From: Acidobacteriota bacterium
Lineage (GTDB): Bacteria > Acidobacteriota > Terriglobia > Terriglobales > Acidobacteriaceae
DNA length: 64,000 nt
NCBI GenBank assembly: GCA_021846985.1
Contig: JAJZVX010000003.1
Span: 62,001-126,000 of the forward strand
Direction: 5' to 3'
Every line of letters starts with the position of its first letter. Within the stretch, counting starts at the first letter, position 1. Below the pieces are notes generated by a model, which was given only the letters and a program-made list of their open reading frames with translations, searched no databases and was not told the DNA's origin. Of this stretch, positions 1,845 through 7,548 are shown piece after piece. A program made the translations under genes and the position numbers.

Positions 1845-2864
1845 CTAACCTAGCAATTCTCGCTCCAATTGTTTTACCTCGTCATCGGTGTCCATGAACG
1901 GCAGAAATTCTGCCTGCTTCATTTTGTTGAGAATCTTGTCATCCCATTTTGAAAACTGATATTCATCAATTATCGTGCGGAGTACGATCTTGTACAGGCA
2001 AACTGCAAGGTAATGATGGGTTGTAGCGAGTTTCTCGAAAGATGATGCCTTAAGGCCAAATCCAGTTAGTCCCGCAGCGTGAGTGTACCAACTCAGTTGC
2101 GCGTATTTGACCTCATAAACTTCCTCGAAAGGTTCCCCCAGCATGACAACGCGGTCACGGAGATTGAGTCCTGACCAGTGCTTCATCTTGATGTTCGCTC
2201 CCCAGAGCCTCTTCCGTTCAGCATCAATTTGGGCCGCGTTGTTCTTGATAAAGAGAGCATGAACTGTTGTGTCAACCGACGCAGTAGGATGAGCAGTTTT
2301 GTATGCGATCATCATCTTCGCTGCGCGTAGCTTTTCAATCTCCGAGAACGCGGCGACCTTGGCTATCGCATCTGGGATTCGCTTGATGAGCGCGAGGTCC
2401 ACCGCCAATTCGAACAGGCTTCGCGTAATCATTGCAATCGCCTGAAAATCTTTTGCATAGCGCAGCGACAGGAGACTTTCTATATTTGCTTTGGTGCGCA
2501 TGTAAATTCCCTTGAAGCAACGATCCCGGTCTGTTTCCGCCAGAAGGCCAGACAAAACGCTGGAAATCTCCTTCTTGTCAAACTCGTTGAGGCTCTTGAT
2601 GACCGTGTACAACCGCTCACCAAAGGTGGCTGAGTCTGGCCCGATACGAAGAGACAGTTTGCGGAACACGCGCATCGCGTCATGCGACGTAAAGGCCCCT
2701 TTTTGCATTCCTGTGACGTGAGCGAAGGCTTGTTTGATTGGAAACTTGACAGCCTTCACTTCCACGTAGAGTTCCCTAATCGCTTCTGGCTCGACGCCAT
2801 CGAGACGCTGTACCACGTCAGCCGTACTCAGCTCAAATTCCACTCCACCCACCGTAAAGGTCAT
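1845..2864 (-). CDS. DUF5677-like helical protein with an N-terminal putative DNA-binding module (339 aa)
   Basis: ATG at 2864 is chosen over an in-frame GTG at 2870 because GGAG lies 5 bases upstream of it. Residues 1-75 form a compact module (TVGGVEFELS..DVVQRLDGVEPEAIRELYVEVK...FPIKQAFAHVTG....FTSHDAMRVFRKL) that resembles an N-terminal segment I recall from assorted predicted defence proteins; this is from memory, not a search. The remainder is alpha-helical and similar to DUF5677 (AMITRSLFELAVDLALIKR and a C-terminal YTHAAG helix). Biochemical function is unknown. It is the first gene of an operon with the PIN-like protein, and its promoter carries 15-bp iterons. The gene is visibly less GC-rich than the chromosome further right. 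Confidence 0.6.
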   Translation of the reverse strand: MTFTVGGVEFELSTADVVQRLDGVEPEAIRELYVEVKAVKFPIKQAFAHVTGMQKGAFTSHDAMRVFRKLSLRIGPDSATFGERLYTVIKSLNEFDKKEISSVLSGLLAETDRDRCFKGIYMRTKANIESLLSLRYAKDFQAIAMITRSLFELAVDLALIKRIPDAIAKVAAFSEIEKLRAAKMMIAYKTAHPTASVDTTVHALFIKNNAAQIDAERKRLWGANIKMKHWSGLNLRDRVVMLGEPFEEVYEVKYAQLSWYTHAAGLTGFGLKASSFEKLATTHHYLAVCLYKIVLRTIIDEYQFSKWDDKILNKMKQAEFLPFMDTDDEVKQLERELLG

Positions 2865-2887
2865 TGGCACTCCCTAGCGAAAATACT

Positions 2888-3820: not shown

Positions 3821-3848
3821 CGGCCATGCTCAGAGATGAGCATGGCCG
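3821..3848. terminator. Bidirectional hairpin between the PIN toxin and ardC
   Basis: CGGCCATGCTCA (3821-3832), loop GAGA, then TGAGCATGGCCG (3837-3848) make a perfect 12-bp stem. It sits between convergent genes and overlaps the last codons and stop of ardC. No U-run follows on either strand, so it may act as a transcript-end stabiliser rather than a classical terminator. Confidence 0.6.
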
Positions 3849-4846
3849 TAGATTGCCGGGACGATATTCATCGCAACGGCTGCGGGGATGCCGCTGACAG
3901 CGGCATCCCCGGCGTTTTCGATTGCTTCCTTCTCTTCTTCAAACGTGCTGCCGAGGATCAGGTCCACGGCTCTCTGCGCATTGGCGGCGGCATGAACGAT
4001 GAGCCGGTTGTCTTCCTCCAGCTTGGCAATCCAGTTCTGGATGTAAGCGGTGGTGTTGCGGTCGGTGTGCTCGTTAGCAATACCAGCGATAGCGCAAAGA
4101 AAGGCCGCGCCCATCTCTGCTACCAATTCCTCTTTGCTGTAAAGCTCATCTCCAAAGCGGTCGCTAAAGATGCGATGTAGACGGCTCTCGTGGCCGGTGC
4201 TGTGTACCAGTTCGTGAAAGAGCGTGCTGTAATAGTGCGGCGCATCCACAAAGCGGCTGCGGGCGGGCACGTGGACGGAATCGGTAGAGGGCCGGTAATA
4301 AGCGCGGTGTTCGGTAGGGCTGTTGAGATGGAGCGCCGGGCGATTCTCCCATCTGGCTACAATGCTCTCGCAGAGTTCGTCTTCGCCAATCTCCGGCGCG
4401 ATGGCGGGTTGCGAGATTTCAGGAAGCGTGAGGCCGTCGCACTGCTCCACGTTGAAAACCGTGTAGTGGCAAAGAACGAAGGGCACGCGCTCATCCTCGC
4501 TCGTTGCTTCCTCGTCTTTCGTGGCGTGTTCGGGAAGCTGCTTGTAAAAGACAATCGGCGTACCGTGCTCGCCTTTGCGGACACTGCCTTTCAATGCCTG
4601 CGCCTGCTTGAAGGTAAGCCAGAACGGAGAGACGTACTCGCTAGACCAAAGCAAGAGAACATTGATGCCACGGTAGGGTTTGCCGGTATAGAAGTTGCGC
4701 GGGAACGGGCCGCCAGCATAGCGCGGCGTCTTCCACGGCTTTTCCCACGGAATCACGCCCGCTTTGAGGCTGGAAATAATGCGCTCGGTAACGGTCTGGT
4801 AGATGCTTGGCCTGCTGGCTGCCTTACGGTAGTTGCGATGTGCCAT
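3830..4846 (-). CDS. ardC: ArdC-type antirestriction protein: ssDNA-binding domain plus metallopeptidase (338 aa)
   Basis: Residues 12-130 match the N-terminal ssDNA-binding domain of ArdC-like proteins (IYQTVTERIISSLKAGVIPWEKPW...NFYTGKPYRGINVLLLW...GSVRKGEHGTPIVFYK). Residues 211-220 are the zinc-metallopeptidase motif HELVHSTGHE, with a downstream KEELVAEMGAAFL supplying the third ligand. ArdC is carried in the leading region of conjugative elements, where it protects incoming DNA from host restriction. AGGAG lies about 11 bases before the ATG. A very large inverted repeat lies 73 bp upstream of the start. The last codons overlap one hairpin, and a second perfect 12-bp inverted repeat is embedded in the 3' coding sequence. 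This gene supports reading the region as a transferable element. Confidence 0.92.
   Translation of the reverse strand: MAHRNYRKAASRPSIYQTVTERIISSLKAGVIPWEKPWKTPRYAGGPFPRNFYTGKPYRGINVLLLWSSEYVSPFWLTFKQAQALKGSVRKGEHGTPIVFYKQLPEHATKDEEATSEDERVPFVLCHYTVFNVEQCDGLTLPEISQPAIAPEIGEDELCESIVARWENRPALHLNSPTEHRAYYRPSTDSVHVPARSRFVDAPHYYSTLFHELVHSTGHESRLHRIFSDRFGDELYSKEELVAEMGAAFLCAIAGIANEHTDRNTTAYIQNWIAKLEEDNRLIVHAAANAQRAVDLILGSTFEEEKEAIENAGDAAVSGIPAAVAMNIVPAIYGHAHL
3884..3910. repeat. Perfect 12-bp inverted repeat inside the ardC 3' end
   Basis: GGGGATGCCGCT (3884-3895), 3-base loop, AGCGGCATCCCC (3899-3910). It lies within ardC codons, about 36 bp from the bidirectional hairpin at 3821. A perfect stem inside coding sequence suggests a structural role at the end of the transcript, though chance cannot be excluded. 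Confidence 0.55.
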
Positions 4847-4918
4847 GACGTTTCGCTCTCCTGTGCTGCCCTCGTGGGGCGGAATCTGAAGGAGGGCTAT
4901 TGCCTTTGGCTCTCAACC

Positions 4919-5102
4919 AAATTTCTTTCGTTGAGTGCCCCCGCTTCATGTCTTTCGCGGCGGGCAGAGGCGAGGCGGGTTCGGTCAATGCCGCGCGTTC
5001 TTCTGCGCGTTTATCGAAGCGCAGCGGAGAGCATTGACGGGTTCCGACCGGCTCTGCCATAAAGCCGCATGAAGCGGGGGCACTTGATGAAAGAAGAAAT
5101 TT
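4919..5102. other. Nested ~184-bp inverted repeat upstream of ardC (candidate ssDNA hairpin or single-stranded promoter)
   Basis: Five nested complementary blocks share one centre near 5013: AAATTTCTT 4919-4927 with 5094-5102; GTGCCCCCGCTTCATG 4935-4950 with 5068-5083 (16 bp, perfect); GGCAGAG 4963-4969 with 5052-5058; GTCAATG 4984-4990 with 5032-5038; CTGCGC 5003-5008 with 5019-5024 around a 10-base loop. The whole can fold as one long interrupted hairpin. It fills most of the 458-bp gap between the divergent ardC and higBA genes and carries no convincing ORF. Known precedents for such structures beside antirestriction genes are the Frpo/ssi single-stranded promoters of conjugative plasmids. 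An oriT, a structured RNA or a small palindromic mobile element are alternatives. Confidence 0.7.
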
Positions 5103-5268
5103 CGGTCTACTTCCGCATTGCTTTGGTTATTTAGGGACTGGCGTAGCGGGCAGGACACGGGCTCCGCCGTGGTGGATGGCGGAAGACGGCGACGATGAAT
5201 GGGCTGGAGGGAAGGAAAGAACTCCTTCCCGAAAGGCATGGAAAAACTTGAAACGCCTGCCTCGGCAT

Positions 5269-5304: not shown

Positions 5305-5595
5305 GTGAGGATACGAAACTTCGTCCATAAGGGTTTGAAGAGGCTCTATGCGGACGACGCCACCAAAGGCGTTCCGCCCGATACCGTGGACAAGCTCCGC
5401 AAGATGTTTGCCTTTCTGGACGACATGGAAGACCCGGAAGAGTTGCGGATGCTGCCCTCGTGGAAGGCGCATACCTTGACAGGCGACCGCAAGGGCAAAT
5501 GGAGCCTGAGCGTCACCGCCAATCGCAGGTTGACCTTTCGCATCGACGCCGCAGAGCATGAGATTTACGACGTGAACTTAGAGGACTACCACTAG
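5305..5595 (+). CDS. higB: HigB-family (RelE-like) toxin (96 aa)
   Basis: The start is set at GTG 5305 because the protein from there (RIRNFVHKGLKRLYADDATKG) matches the usual HigB N-terminus and the promoter's -10 box ends only 7 bases upstream. The sequence continues KLRKMFAFLDDMEDPEELRMLPSWKAHTLTGDRKGKWSLSVTANRRLTFRI, with GKWSLSVTANRRLTFR and a C-terminal DVNLEDYH characteristic of HigB/RelE mRNA interferases that cut mRNA on the ribosome. The toxin gene precedes its antitoxin, the normal higBA order. The frame is open further upstream, but that stretch contains the promoter and is not expected to be translated. Confidence 0.88.
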   Translation: MRIRNFVHKGLKRLYADDATKGVPPDTVDKLRKMFAFLDDMEDPEELRMLPSWKAHTLTGDRKGKWSLSVTANRRLTFRIDAAEHEIYDVNLEDYH

Positions 5596-5613: not shown

Positions 5614-5913
5614 ATGCCTATGAAGAACCCGCCCCATCCTGGGGATTTCATTCGGACGGAGATTATCGAGGCCGCAGGGTTGACGGTGACCGCTGCGGCG
5701 ATAGCGTTGCGCGTCTCGCGTCCTACGTTGTCCAGTCTGCTCAATGGCAAGGCCGATCTCTCCGGGGATATGGCGCTCCGTATCGAGAAAGCTTTTGGAG
5801 TGAAGATGGATACGTTGATGCGTATGCAGTCGTCTTACGACATTGCCCAAACGCGCAAGCGCGAGAAACAAATTCGTGTGCCGCGCATTTCCGTGTTGGC
5901 TGCCACGCATTAG
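5614..5913 (+). CDS. higA: HigA-family antitoxin, XRE HTH (99 aa)
   Basis: The N-terminus PPHPGDFIRTEIIEAAGLTVTAAAIALRVSRPTLSSLLNGKADLSGDMALRIEKAFG is the classical HigA/VapI helix-turn-helix, ending in a 30-residue basic tail. It should bind HigB and repress the promoter at 5269. AGGAG lies 9 bases before the ATG, unlike higB, which has no ribosome-binding site. The two genes are separated by 18 bp. Such pairs stabilise mobile elements, in agreement with the ardC and integrase context. Confidence 0.92.
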   Translation: MPMKNPPHPGDFIRTEIIEAAGLTVTAAAIALRVSRPTLSSLLNGKADLSGDMALRIEKAFGVKMDTLMRMQSSYDIAQTRKREKQIRVPRISVLAATH

Positions 5914-6134: not shown

Positions 6135-7415
6135 CTACGCTTCCTCGGCCAAACGGACGGCCTCTACTCGTCCGGGGCCTTTCCTGGGAGCGGTCTTTTT
6201 CTTCGACCGTGGCCTCATGATGTTGATCGCGGAAGCATCGAGCTGCGTCTTTAAATGCGCCGCATAGTACTTCTCAATCATCTCCACGCTTGTCCGGCAG
6301 TTCTTTGCGATCTGATAGATGTCGGCACCTTCAAGCAGGCGCAGGCAAATGTAGGTGTGGCGCAGGCTATACGCCGTTCGCGGCCTTCCGTCACGGTCGG
6401 TGCGGAGCTTTTCTTCCTCAAGGATTGCGTTGAACAACTCGCGCGGCCATTTCGGGAACAGAAGATCGGTGGGGCCGGGCGCGTGCCACTCACCGTTAGC
6501 CATCGATGCGGTACGGCTGCCTGATCTTCCCGGCCCTCCATCTGGACGCAGACGCGCTTTCAACCGCTCAAACGGATGCACAGCACCCGTTGTGCTCTTG
6601 CAATAGCCAACGCCTCGCTTTCCACGCACTTCGATCTCAAGGATGGTTTGGCCGCTCCCCTCGTCTTCGGTCACCGTGACATCGCGGAACTGAAGACGCC
6701 TCGCCTCGTCGGGGCGGAGTCCGGTGTTGGCGGAGAACAGAACATAATCGTGAAGTTGTTCCGCTTCCCAACGAAAACGGGGCTGCTTGGGGTCCTGCGA
6801 GCGTTTCCGCGTTGCCTCATAAAGCTGCTTGTACTCTTCCGGTGAGAACCATGCTCTATGAGAAATCTTTGCGGACGCGCGATATGGCGCTGACAAATCC
6901 GGGAGATGATCGATCCATCCGTGCCGCAGAGCCGTTTTGAAAATCTGGCGCAATGTCACGATCTCCTGGTGCATGGTGCTATGCGCTGGCGGCTTGCCGC
7001 GCAAGGCCTTGCACTCTTCAAGGCGATGGATGCGATATTCGTTGATCTTGCCTGCCGTGATCTCAGGTAGCACCATGCTGCCGAAGAACGGGACCAAATG
7101 GCCGTTGGCGCGCGTGTGCTGTTGACTCGCGTATTTCGGGTTGCGCTGTCCCTGCGTCATGATGTCAAACTCGCGCAGGTACAACTTTGCAGCGTCGCGG
7201 AACAGTTTGCCGCTTTTCAACTCACCGTCGCGGAGTTTGCCGCGCAACTGCAAATACCAGTCTTCCGCGAACTCCTTCGCTTTCGAGAGACTGTCTTCTT
7301 TGGTGGTGGTCCGCCGATTCTTCCCGGCCAGATAGGTTGCGCACTGCCAACTGGAGCTGTTCGGACGTTTGTAGACGTGAACTTTGCCACCGAGGATGGT
7401 GTAATGCTCTGCCAT
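6135..7415 (-). CDS. Tyrosine recombinase / integrase (426 aa)
   Basis: ATG at 7415 is chosen: it is preceded by GGAGGT at a good distance, and the protein from MAEHYTILGGKVHVYKR looks complete. The central part is a SAM-like core-binding domain (residues ~80-190). The catalytic domain shows SANTGLRPDEARRLQ (first Arg), YSLRHTYICLRLLEGADIYQIAKN (second Arg and His; the usual first His of HxxRH is Tyr) and a terminal VEMIEKYYAAH with the nucleophile Tyr. Family members integrate and excise genomic islands at tRNA genes. A truncated tRNA-Leu lies about 130 bp upstream of the start, in the position expected of its attachment site. It converges with higA. Confidence 0.92.
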   Translation of the reverse strand: MAEHYTILGGKVHVYKRPNSSSWQCATYLAGKNRRTTTKEDSLSKAKEFAEDWYLQLRGKLRDGELKSGKLFRDAAKLYLREFDIMTQGQRNPKYASQQHTRANGHLVPFFGSMVLPEITAGKINEYRIHRLEECKALRGKPPAHSTMHQEIVTLRQIFKTALRHGWIDHLPDLSAPYRASAKISHRAWFSPEEYKQLYEATRKRSQDPKQPRFRWEAEQLHDYVLFSANTGLRPDEARRLQFRDVTVTEDEGSGQTILEIEVRGKRGVGYCKSTTGAVHPFERLKARLRPDGGPGRSGSRTASMANGEWHAPGPTDLLFPKWPRELFNAILEEEKLRTDRDGRPRTAYSLRHTYICLRLLEGADIYQIAKNCRTSVEMIEKYYAAHLKTQLDASAINIMRPRSKKKTAPRKGPGRVEAVRLAEEA

Positions 7416-7434
7416 GCGGCCGCACCTCCCGCTT

Positions 7435-7446
7435 CTTCTATAGAAG
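7435..7446. promoter_or_regulatory. 12-bp palindrome in the integrase leader
   Basis: CTTCTATAGAAG is a perfect palindrome located 20 bp upstream of the integrase start. On the minus strand a TTGCGC, 16-bp spacer, TATGCT promoter can be read just upstream and overlapping it. It is a plausible operator for integrase control. Confidence 0.4.
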
Positions 7447-7548
7447 CATAAAAGTGTGCAAGAGTTGCGCAAGCCTTGTGCTCTGGTTGGCATCAGAGCA
7501 AGCAATTTATTTTCAATTGTTTATGGAAGTCCGACTGGCTGGTAATCC

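Follow-up and report, generated by a model that had tools for sequence, protein, structure and literature searches.

A nested palindrome upstream of ardC in acidobacterial integrative elements as a possible single-strand promoter

The palindrome and the genes around it

The window, a stretch of 64,000 nucleotides from an acidobacterial genome, carries an ardC gene on its minus strand (3830-4846), encoding a protein of 338 aa with an ArdcN domain (2.6e-39) and an MPTase-PolyVal domain (3.5e-38). The gene starts at 4846 and reads leftward, away from a nested palindrome at 4919-5102. The interval between them (4847-4918) is the predicted 5' UTR of ardC on the minus strand, where an AGGAG ribosome-binding site was recognized by eye at 4858-4862. 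The first-pass annotation had placed the palindrome directly upstream of ardC at a distance of 73 bp; the position was right, but the gap is 72 bases.

The outer arms of the palindrome, 28 nt each on the plus strand (4923-4950 on the left, pairing with 5068-5095 on the right), are complementary at 89% of positions, and the three mismatches, read by hand, are each G.T on the plus strand. Folded as single-stranded DNA, the plus strand of 4919-5102, which is the template strand of ardC and folds better, reaches -59.5 kcal/mol (z -7.60), and the minus strand reaches -49.4 kcal/mol (z -5.55); none of 200 shuffles equalled either value. With both strands folding far below their shuffles, the palindrome of 184 nt noticed in the first reading is present, and it is marked by sequence, repeats, folds, homologues and covariation alike. 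The predicted folds consist of a single long interrupted hairpin with a branched centre. A known structured RNA family was rejected, since all Rfam scores in the palindrome region fell under the gathering score. An integron attC site seems unlikely as well; by eye, consistent core sites of the attC consensus type were not seen in the aligned copies.

On the far side of the hairpin, the right flank (5103-5175, plus strand) is moderately conserved among copies, with variable gene content beyond it. The variable cargo in the window includes a HigB-like toxin (5338-5595, plus strand), next to which lies an HTH antitoxin (5614-5913, plus strand) that is HigA-like by position, both found by domain search. 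They are followed by an integrase-like gene on the minus strand (6135-7505), whose Phage_int_SAM_5 match of 20.6 bits is just under the cut-off of 22.3. A DUF5677 protein and a Kelch-repeat protein (window 1845-2870 and C12:61048-62496, C12 being the window's own contig) are probably further cargo of the element. At other copies (L011-L031), the right-side genes differ and comprise higBA and, with names given by eye, PIN-domain-like, AbiEi-like and HsdM-like genes and AAA ATPases. The right side of the hairpin copies appears to be a hot spot for cargo or defence genes.

A hairpin family in Acidobacteria and its strand preference

A BLAST search with the region gave matches in 14 of 60 genomes (its own and relatives), with one to three matches per positive genome when up to 13 candidates were scored. 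Order-wide, 64 of 397 genomes and 18 of 80 genera had matches, the own genome and partial matches included and at most two candidates per genome scored. A covariance model of the hairpin matched 46 of the 349 genomes of the class. A total of 103 placements gave 83 distinct cores, from which 57 near-full-length copies were aligned. Copies scoring below 130 bits or lying too close to a contig end were left out of this set, L026, L084 and L112 were removed from it manually, and only identical cores were collapsed. The closest named relatives of the window's ArdC are likewise acidobacterial (Terracidiphilus, Granulicella, Edaphobacter, Terriglobus and other Acidobacteriaceae).

An ArdC-type gene starts 68-138 nt to the left of the hairpin and reads away from it in 52 of the 57 aligned copies. 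Sixteen of these genes are nearest to the window's type and 36 belong to a second type, here called ardC2, for which the one protein tested has an ArdcN match of 2.9e-11. The five copies outside this pattern are L027, L059, L088, L090 and L100; by eye, an IS110-like gene occupies the ardC position in L088, and an ardC-like remnant is found at L100.

Core-only copies of the hairpin were also observed. One, on the window's own contig outside the window (C12:60185-60244, L003/L009), precedes the candidate oriT described below by about 190 nt and shares its strand; a DUF6429 gene lies to the left of this copy. Nested palindromes with the same core and other arms were found at L029, beside an IS256-like transposase recognized by eye, and at L010 (C37:8513-8686 of the own genome), possibly beside a remnant. 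A dispersed palindromic repeat of MITE or REP type, or a recombination hot spot, lying beside ardC by chance would account for such core-only copies elsewhere, some of them beside an IS256-like transposase, as well as for the differing right-side genes and for the presence of at least five copies in one genome (G274). Such a repeat is hard to reconcile with 52 of 57 full copies occupying one position relative to ArdC-type genes, with the one to three matches per positive genome in the 60-genome set, and with the lack, by eye, of a target-site duplication in the aligned copies; we regard it as decidedly improbable.

The fold itself is conserved. RNAalifold on 36 copies yielded 47 pairs, 16 of them with compensatory changes, as where GCGGC/GCCGC becomes GCAAC/GTTGC; pairs in the core switch among G-C, C-G and U-A. 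Paired cells amount to 96.3%, where shuffles reach 90.4% and slid registers 35-51%, and the covariation score is 0.248 against 0.143 in shuffles. No shuffle of 500 was as high as the real alignment on four of the five measures, and two were on the fifth, with the reservation that these shuffles ignore kinship among the copies. The expectation that the hairpin would recur with covarying stems upstream of ArdC-type genes in related genomes is thus borne out. The conserved core (4984-5038, plus strand), defined by the alignments, is a GTCAA...TTGAC stem (4984-4988 paired with 5034-5038) around a small hairpin that varies and an unpaired stretch that is mostly conserved (TTYATCGNAGCG...AGCGGAGA-like), and it is shared with the divergent f7 subfamily.

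The two strands were folded separately, as the first-pass annotation had proposed. The plus strand, the template of ardC, is the more stable one in the window and in all 57 copies, with means of -56.4 and -49.6 kcal/mol. The mean advantage of the plus strand is 6.7 kcal/mol; dinucleotide shuffles already show 2.9 kcal/mol of it, so that composition accounts for part of this advantage. The difference goes beyond these shuffles toward the plus strand in 57 of 57 copies (mean z -1.8, 22 copies beyond -1.96), and the z-score of the plus strand is below that of the minus strand in 46 copies and not in the other 11. The consensus fold reaches -65.6 on the plus strand and -23.4 on the minus strand. 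Mismatched pairs were counted as well: the structure derived from the plus strand has 304 G.T and 19 A.C cells, and that from the minus strand 10 G.T and 80 A.C. The counts flip with the strand whose fold is used, and they are therefore circular when taken alone. The 19 pairs common to both structures hold 7 G.T and 6 A.C, the mostly Watson-Crick pairs of the plus structure 93 and 17, and a strand-neutral helix set 180 and 114. Plain fold energies are independent of any chosen structure. The template strand of ardC is moderately favoured in folding, beyond composition, a preference that the first-pass annotation had not noted.

This strand preference bears on two other explanations. An ordinary double-stranded operator, a cruciform or an mRNA leader hairpin of ardC would suit the position, which fits a promoter or leader with the AGGAG site behind it, and both strands do fold much more stably than their shuffles. 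An operator or a cruciform, however, should show no strand bias, and a leader RNA of ardC should favour the minus strand, whereas the plus strand is favoured beyond composition. The minus-strand leader and the strand-neutral cruciform are weakened or rejected by this, and we hold this explanation to be the least probable of those considered. Alternatively, rightward transcription of the plus strand might yield a structured RNA with an antisense or regulatory role in the element, and such an RNA would show the same fold preference. Its start would have to fall within the 72 nt between ardC and the palindrome, where no promoter was seen by eye, and the region matches no Rfam family at the gathering score; moreover, the ardC side is the fixed one while the right-hand genes vary. 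We consider it improbable.

The family extends beyond ardC. A subfamily in family f7, found with the covariance model, has the same core with different arms and is about 150 nt long. The genes to the left of its hairpins are ArdC-like at L149, L155 and L156 (ArdcN 1.4e-7 for the L156 protein); at L160 and L161 a small protein is followed by a ParB-like gene, and at L159 by WGR-like and ParB-like genes, these names being given by eye. The first gene after the hairpin in L159, L160 and L161 encodes a small conserved protein (LGQLVATPGALAAL...), of which the L159 representative has no Pfam match. The f7 copies that were read keep TTGACA and have no evident -10, and the f7 places have no TrwC match within 40 kb. 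Two divergent full-length copies, in G212 (L109) and G147 (L113), precede DUF3085 genes (2.9e-13 and 1.9e-12), and similar DUF3085-like genes were recognized by eye at L111 (G063:C7) and L136 (G116).

Conversely, many ardC homologues do without this hairpin. Forty further upstream regions, a subset of the order's ardC homologues taken without a previously listed hairpin, were compared with the model; seven matched (three further G274 copies and four distant homologues of 41-44% identity) and 33 did not. A hairpin at every ardC is rejected on this count. The tie between hairpin and ardC claimed at first holds for 52 of the 57 copies, and it fails for the 33 of 40 unmatched homologues and the core-only copies away from ardC. 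Among 78 named ardC loci, 18 have a strong hairpin and L257 a weak one, all of these records being Acidobacteria or taxa within them.

Other hairpins were noted at such loci. By eye, about 20 of the 33 unmatched regions (L164-L187) have another multi-hairpin spacer in common (GGGGCAGCGCCCC, CATGCCG repeats), situated at the same position upstream of the ardC homologues and with an outer flank apparently common with the present family. In Rhodospirillaceae and other Proteobacteria, L268, L276 and L279 possess unrelated nested hairpins of 170-190 nt some 40-60 nt upstream of ardC homologues, more stable on the template strand. When 36 distant ardC loci, mostly from other phyla (L257 is acidobacterial), were scanned in a strand-neutral way, z fell below -5 in 7 of the 36 regions upstream and 1 of 35 downstream, and below -4 in 12 upstream and 6 downstream; among the latter, the plus strand was the better one in 7 of 12 and 3 of 6. 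Upstream hairpins at distant ardC loci are only a lead.

Promoter-like boxes and the mobile element

The folded stem holds the promoter-like bases that the first-pass annotation had suggested looking for, reading toward ardC, though with a weak -10. A -35-like TTGACG (5034-5039, plus strand) lies in the right arm, which is the non-template side of the folded hairpin, and points outward toward ardC; a -10-like CATAAA (5058-5063, plus strand) follows 18 nt past it, in or beside a bulge of the stem. TTGAC is present in 53 of the 57 copies, and the spacer is 18 nt in 55 of them and 17 in two. The -10-like hexamers are CATAAA, TAGACC, CACAAA or similar, and 56 of 57 have A as their second base; the mean best match to TATAAT is 3.40, against 1.95 with the tail shuffled, and mostly four or fewer of the six bases match. 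The best box score is higher on the plus arm than on the minus arm in 53 copies, equal in three and lower in one. The copies are related, and hence these counts do not represent 57 independent events. In double-stranded DNA, the TTGACG and CATAAA boxes face away from ardC.

We propose that the palindrome is a T-strand hairpin of integrative MOBF elements that serves as a single-strand promoter for ardC, Frpo-like in logic, and we give this reading about an even chance. On transfer, the plus strand would enter the recipient single-stranded and fold, and the folded stem would offer a double-stranded -35 (TTGACG) and, 18 nt on, a bulged -10-like hexamer. RNA polymerase would use the folded strand, start inside the stem, copy the left arm and continue into ardC, with the entering strand as template. 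ArdC would then be made before the entering strand turns double-stranded and restrictable, and its expression would be transient, the boxes facing away from ardC once the DNA is double-stranded. RNA from the hairpin may also prime synthesis of the complementary strand. The stability of the hairpin in this non-coding region is a computed property; its strand would be the transferred one.

The hairpin could instead be a single-strand origin or priming site (sso/ssi) that recruits primase or RNA polymerase, with ardC merely adjacent. The strand preference and the covariation fit this equally well, and the core with its unpaired stretch is kept better than the -10; a precedent exists in the described sso of ICEBs1 (PMC4595007). 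A priming site leaves unexplained the fixed short distance and orientation to the start codon in 52 of 57 copies and the -10-like hexamer at 18 nt. It is also not exclusive of a promoter, since the title of Masai & Arai 1997 gives both roles to Frpo. We rate priming by itself as rather unlikely.

The claim that the hairpin belongs to an integrative or conjugative element is supported by a MOBF (TrwC) relaxase within 40 kb at 34 of 90 hairpin places (the order-wide placements plus two from the 60-genome search). The relaxase is on the ardC strand at 33 of these 34, the exception being G148:C3; the remaining 56 places, many of them on short contigs, have no TrwC in reach (40 kb). TrwC occurs in 50 of the 64 genomes that carry the hairpin, against 189 of all 397 genomes of the order. 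The relaxase strand bias largely reflects that ardC and the relaxase lie on one strand, and the extra covariance-model hits beyond the BLAST set display no preference (4 versus 3); because the copies are related, p values overstate.

On the window's own contig, outside the window, a NikA-like accessory gene (1.1e-7), a TrwB-type coupling protein (1.9e-75) and a TrwC relaxase (8.9e-89) are encoded in this order, all on the ardC strand; the genes for the relaxase and the coupling protein, just beyond the window, had gone unnoticed in the first-pass annotation. The same order, accessory gene - trwB - trwC, is that of plasmid R388, to which the window's element is likened by gene order and not by sequence. 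Related regions encode VirB-like proteins, named by eye from translations, and G024 has SSB (9.4e-20) and ParB (2.3e-24). The Pfam profile detected VirB4 in 9 of the 16 genomes searched, and in G013, G100 and G063:C7 it lies no more than 25 kb from a hairpin. The window's own genome has no match to this profile, so its element may depend on a helper for transfer. Taken as a MOBF element, the window's element has the relaxase and the coupling protein, an integrase-like gene just under the cut-off, and no VirB4 match.

In aligned regions, a short hairpin with GNNGTGTC after it was recognized beside the accessory gene; it is a candidate oriT and presumably resembles the R388 nick region. The pattern GGGGTGNNGTGTC, drawn up after viewing five aligned regions, occurs in 10 of 18 regions and in nine of the ten on the hairpin strand; the tenth, in G274, is on the other strand and lacks the small hairpin. 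The accessory gene was found by tblastn in six of the nine motif regions (G000, G021, G063, G126, G013 and G024). In the own element, the motif (C12:60436-60457) lies 1.5 kb from the accessory gene, in a stretch that is insertion-like relative to G021. The orientation of the relaxase and of this motif is that in which the hairpin strand would act as template. The T-strand is predicted to be the plus, or hairpin, strand by analogy with the gene order of R388 and F, and from the oriT-like motif.

The candidate oriT also indicates on which side the hairpin would enter. In the own element, the hairpin is 6.5 kb downstream of it (C12:60445) with ardC in between, and G021, G126 and G063 have a similar arrangement over 8.8-18 kb. 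In G137, G100, G199, G013 and G024, all of ardC2 type, the candidate oriT is found right of the hairpin, at a distance of 8.6-18 kb. The leading-region position proposed for the hairpin thus stands for the window's element and three others, and it fails for the five ardC2-type elements, where the hairpin is on the other side. Unless their circular form is arranged in another way, these elements would pass ardC2 to the recipient late, which is the chief objection to a simple leading-region account. A lagging position matters less for priming.

Wider meaning and comparison with known systems

A broader reading is that acidobacterial integrative elements have their own class of single-strand promoter, unrelated to Frpo and built on a TTGAC core stem with an unpaired stretch, serving ArdC, DUF3085 and ParB-type operons, and rebuilt with arms that differ between bacterial families. 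Analogous hairpins in other phyla (L268, L276 and L279) could then mean that single-strand expression of ArdC is general and convergent. We advance this tentatively, as a possibility that we would not expect to hold in full. Most work on single-strand promoters so far concerns a small number of enterobacterial plasmids and related ones. If the proposal is true, the use of the entering strand for early expression is more widespread and reaches chromosomal elements of another phylum, the covariance model offers a way to find such promoters where Frpo homology fails, and single-strand transcription outside enterobacteria becomes open to direct test. A search of the open literature returned no report of the present hairpin element for the terms used.

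Several described systems share parts of this organization. R388 has a MOBF relaxase and ArdC (PMC7213743). In the window's element, as in R388, ardC is situated on the other side of the candidate oriT from accessory - trwB - trwC. ICEBs1 has the single-strand origin sso1 (PMC4595007), which is likewise a single-strand element in an integrative conjugative element and differs in being described as a replication origin.

The closest comparison is with Frpo. PMC9849209 describes Frpo as a single-stranded sequence whose stem-loop carries canonical -10 and -35 boxes and which is inactivated once it becomes double-stranded, and the title of Masai & Arai 1997 names it both promoter and priming site. 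Samuel 2024 used five known Frpo/ssi sequences as queries against 21,907 potential conjugative elements, and its main text does not mention ardC (PMC11541004). The hairpin region had no match at E 1e-5 among 72,556 plasmid records, in which F-type plasmids are presumed to be included, and it is therefore classed as working like Frpo and not as a homologue. The shared logic is suggested by sequence and fold, and the lack of detected homology is a result of this plasmid search. According to Couturier 2023 (PMC9849209) and Samuel 2024 (PMC11541004), the Frpo/ssi elements of F and ColIb-P9 are likewise non-coding hairpins upstream of establishment or antirestriction genes, on the template strand, whose folded stem contains a -35 and a -10-like box. 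The present family differs in residing on chromosomal elements of Acidobacteria, in its weak -10 and long, partly conserved unpaired stretch, and in not always being on the leading side of the candidate oriT. Whereas Frpo/ssi precede ssb/psiB/ardA, it precedes ardC, DUF3085 or ParB-type operons.
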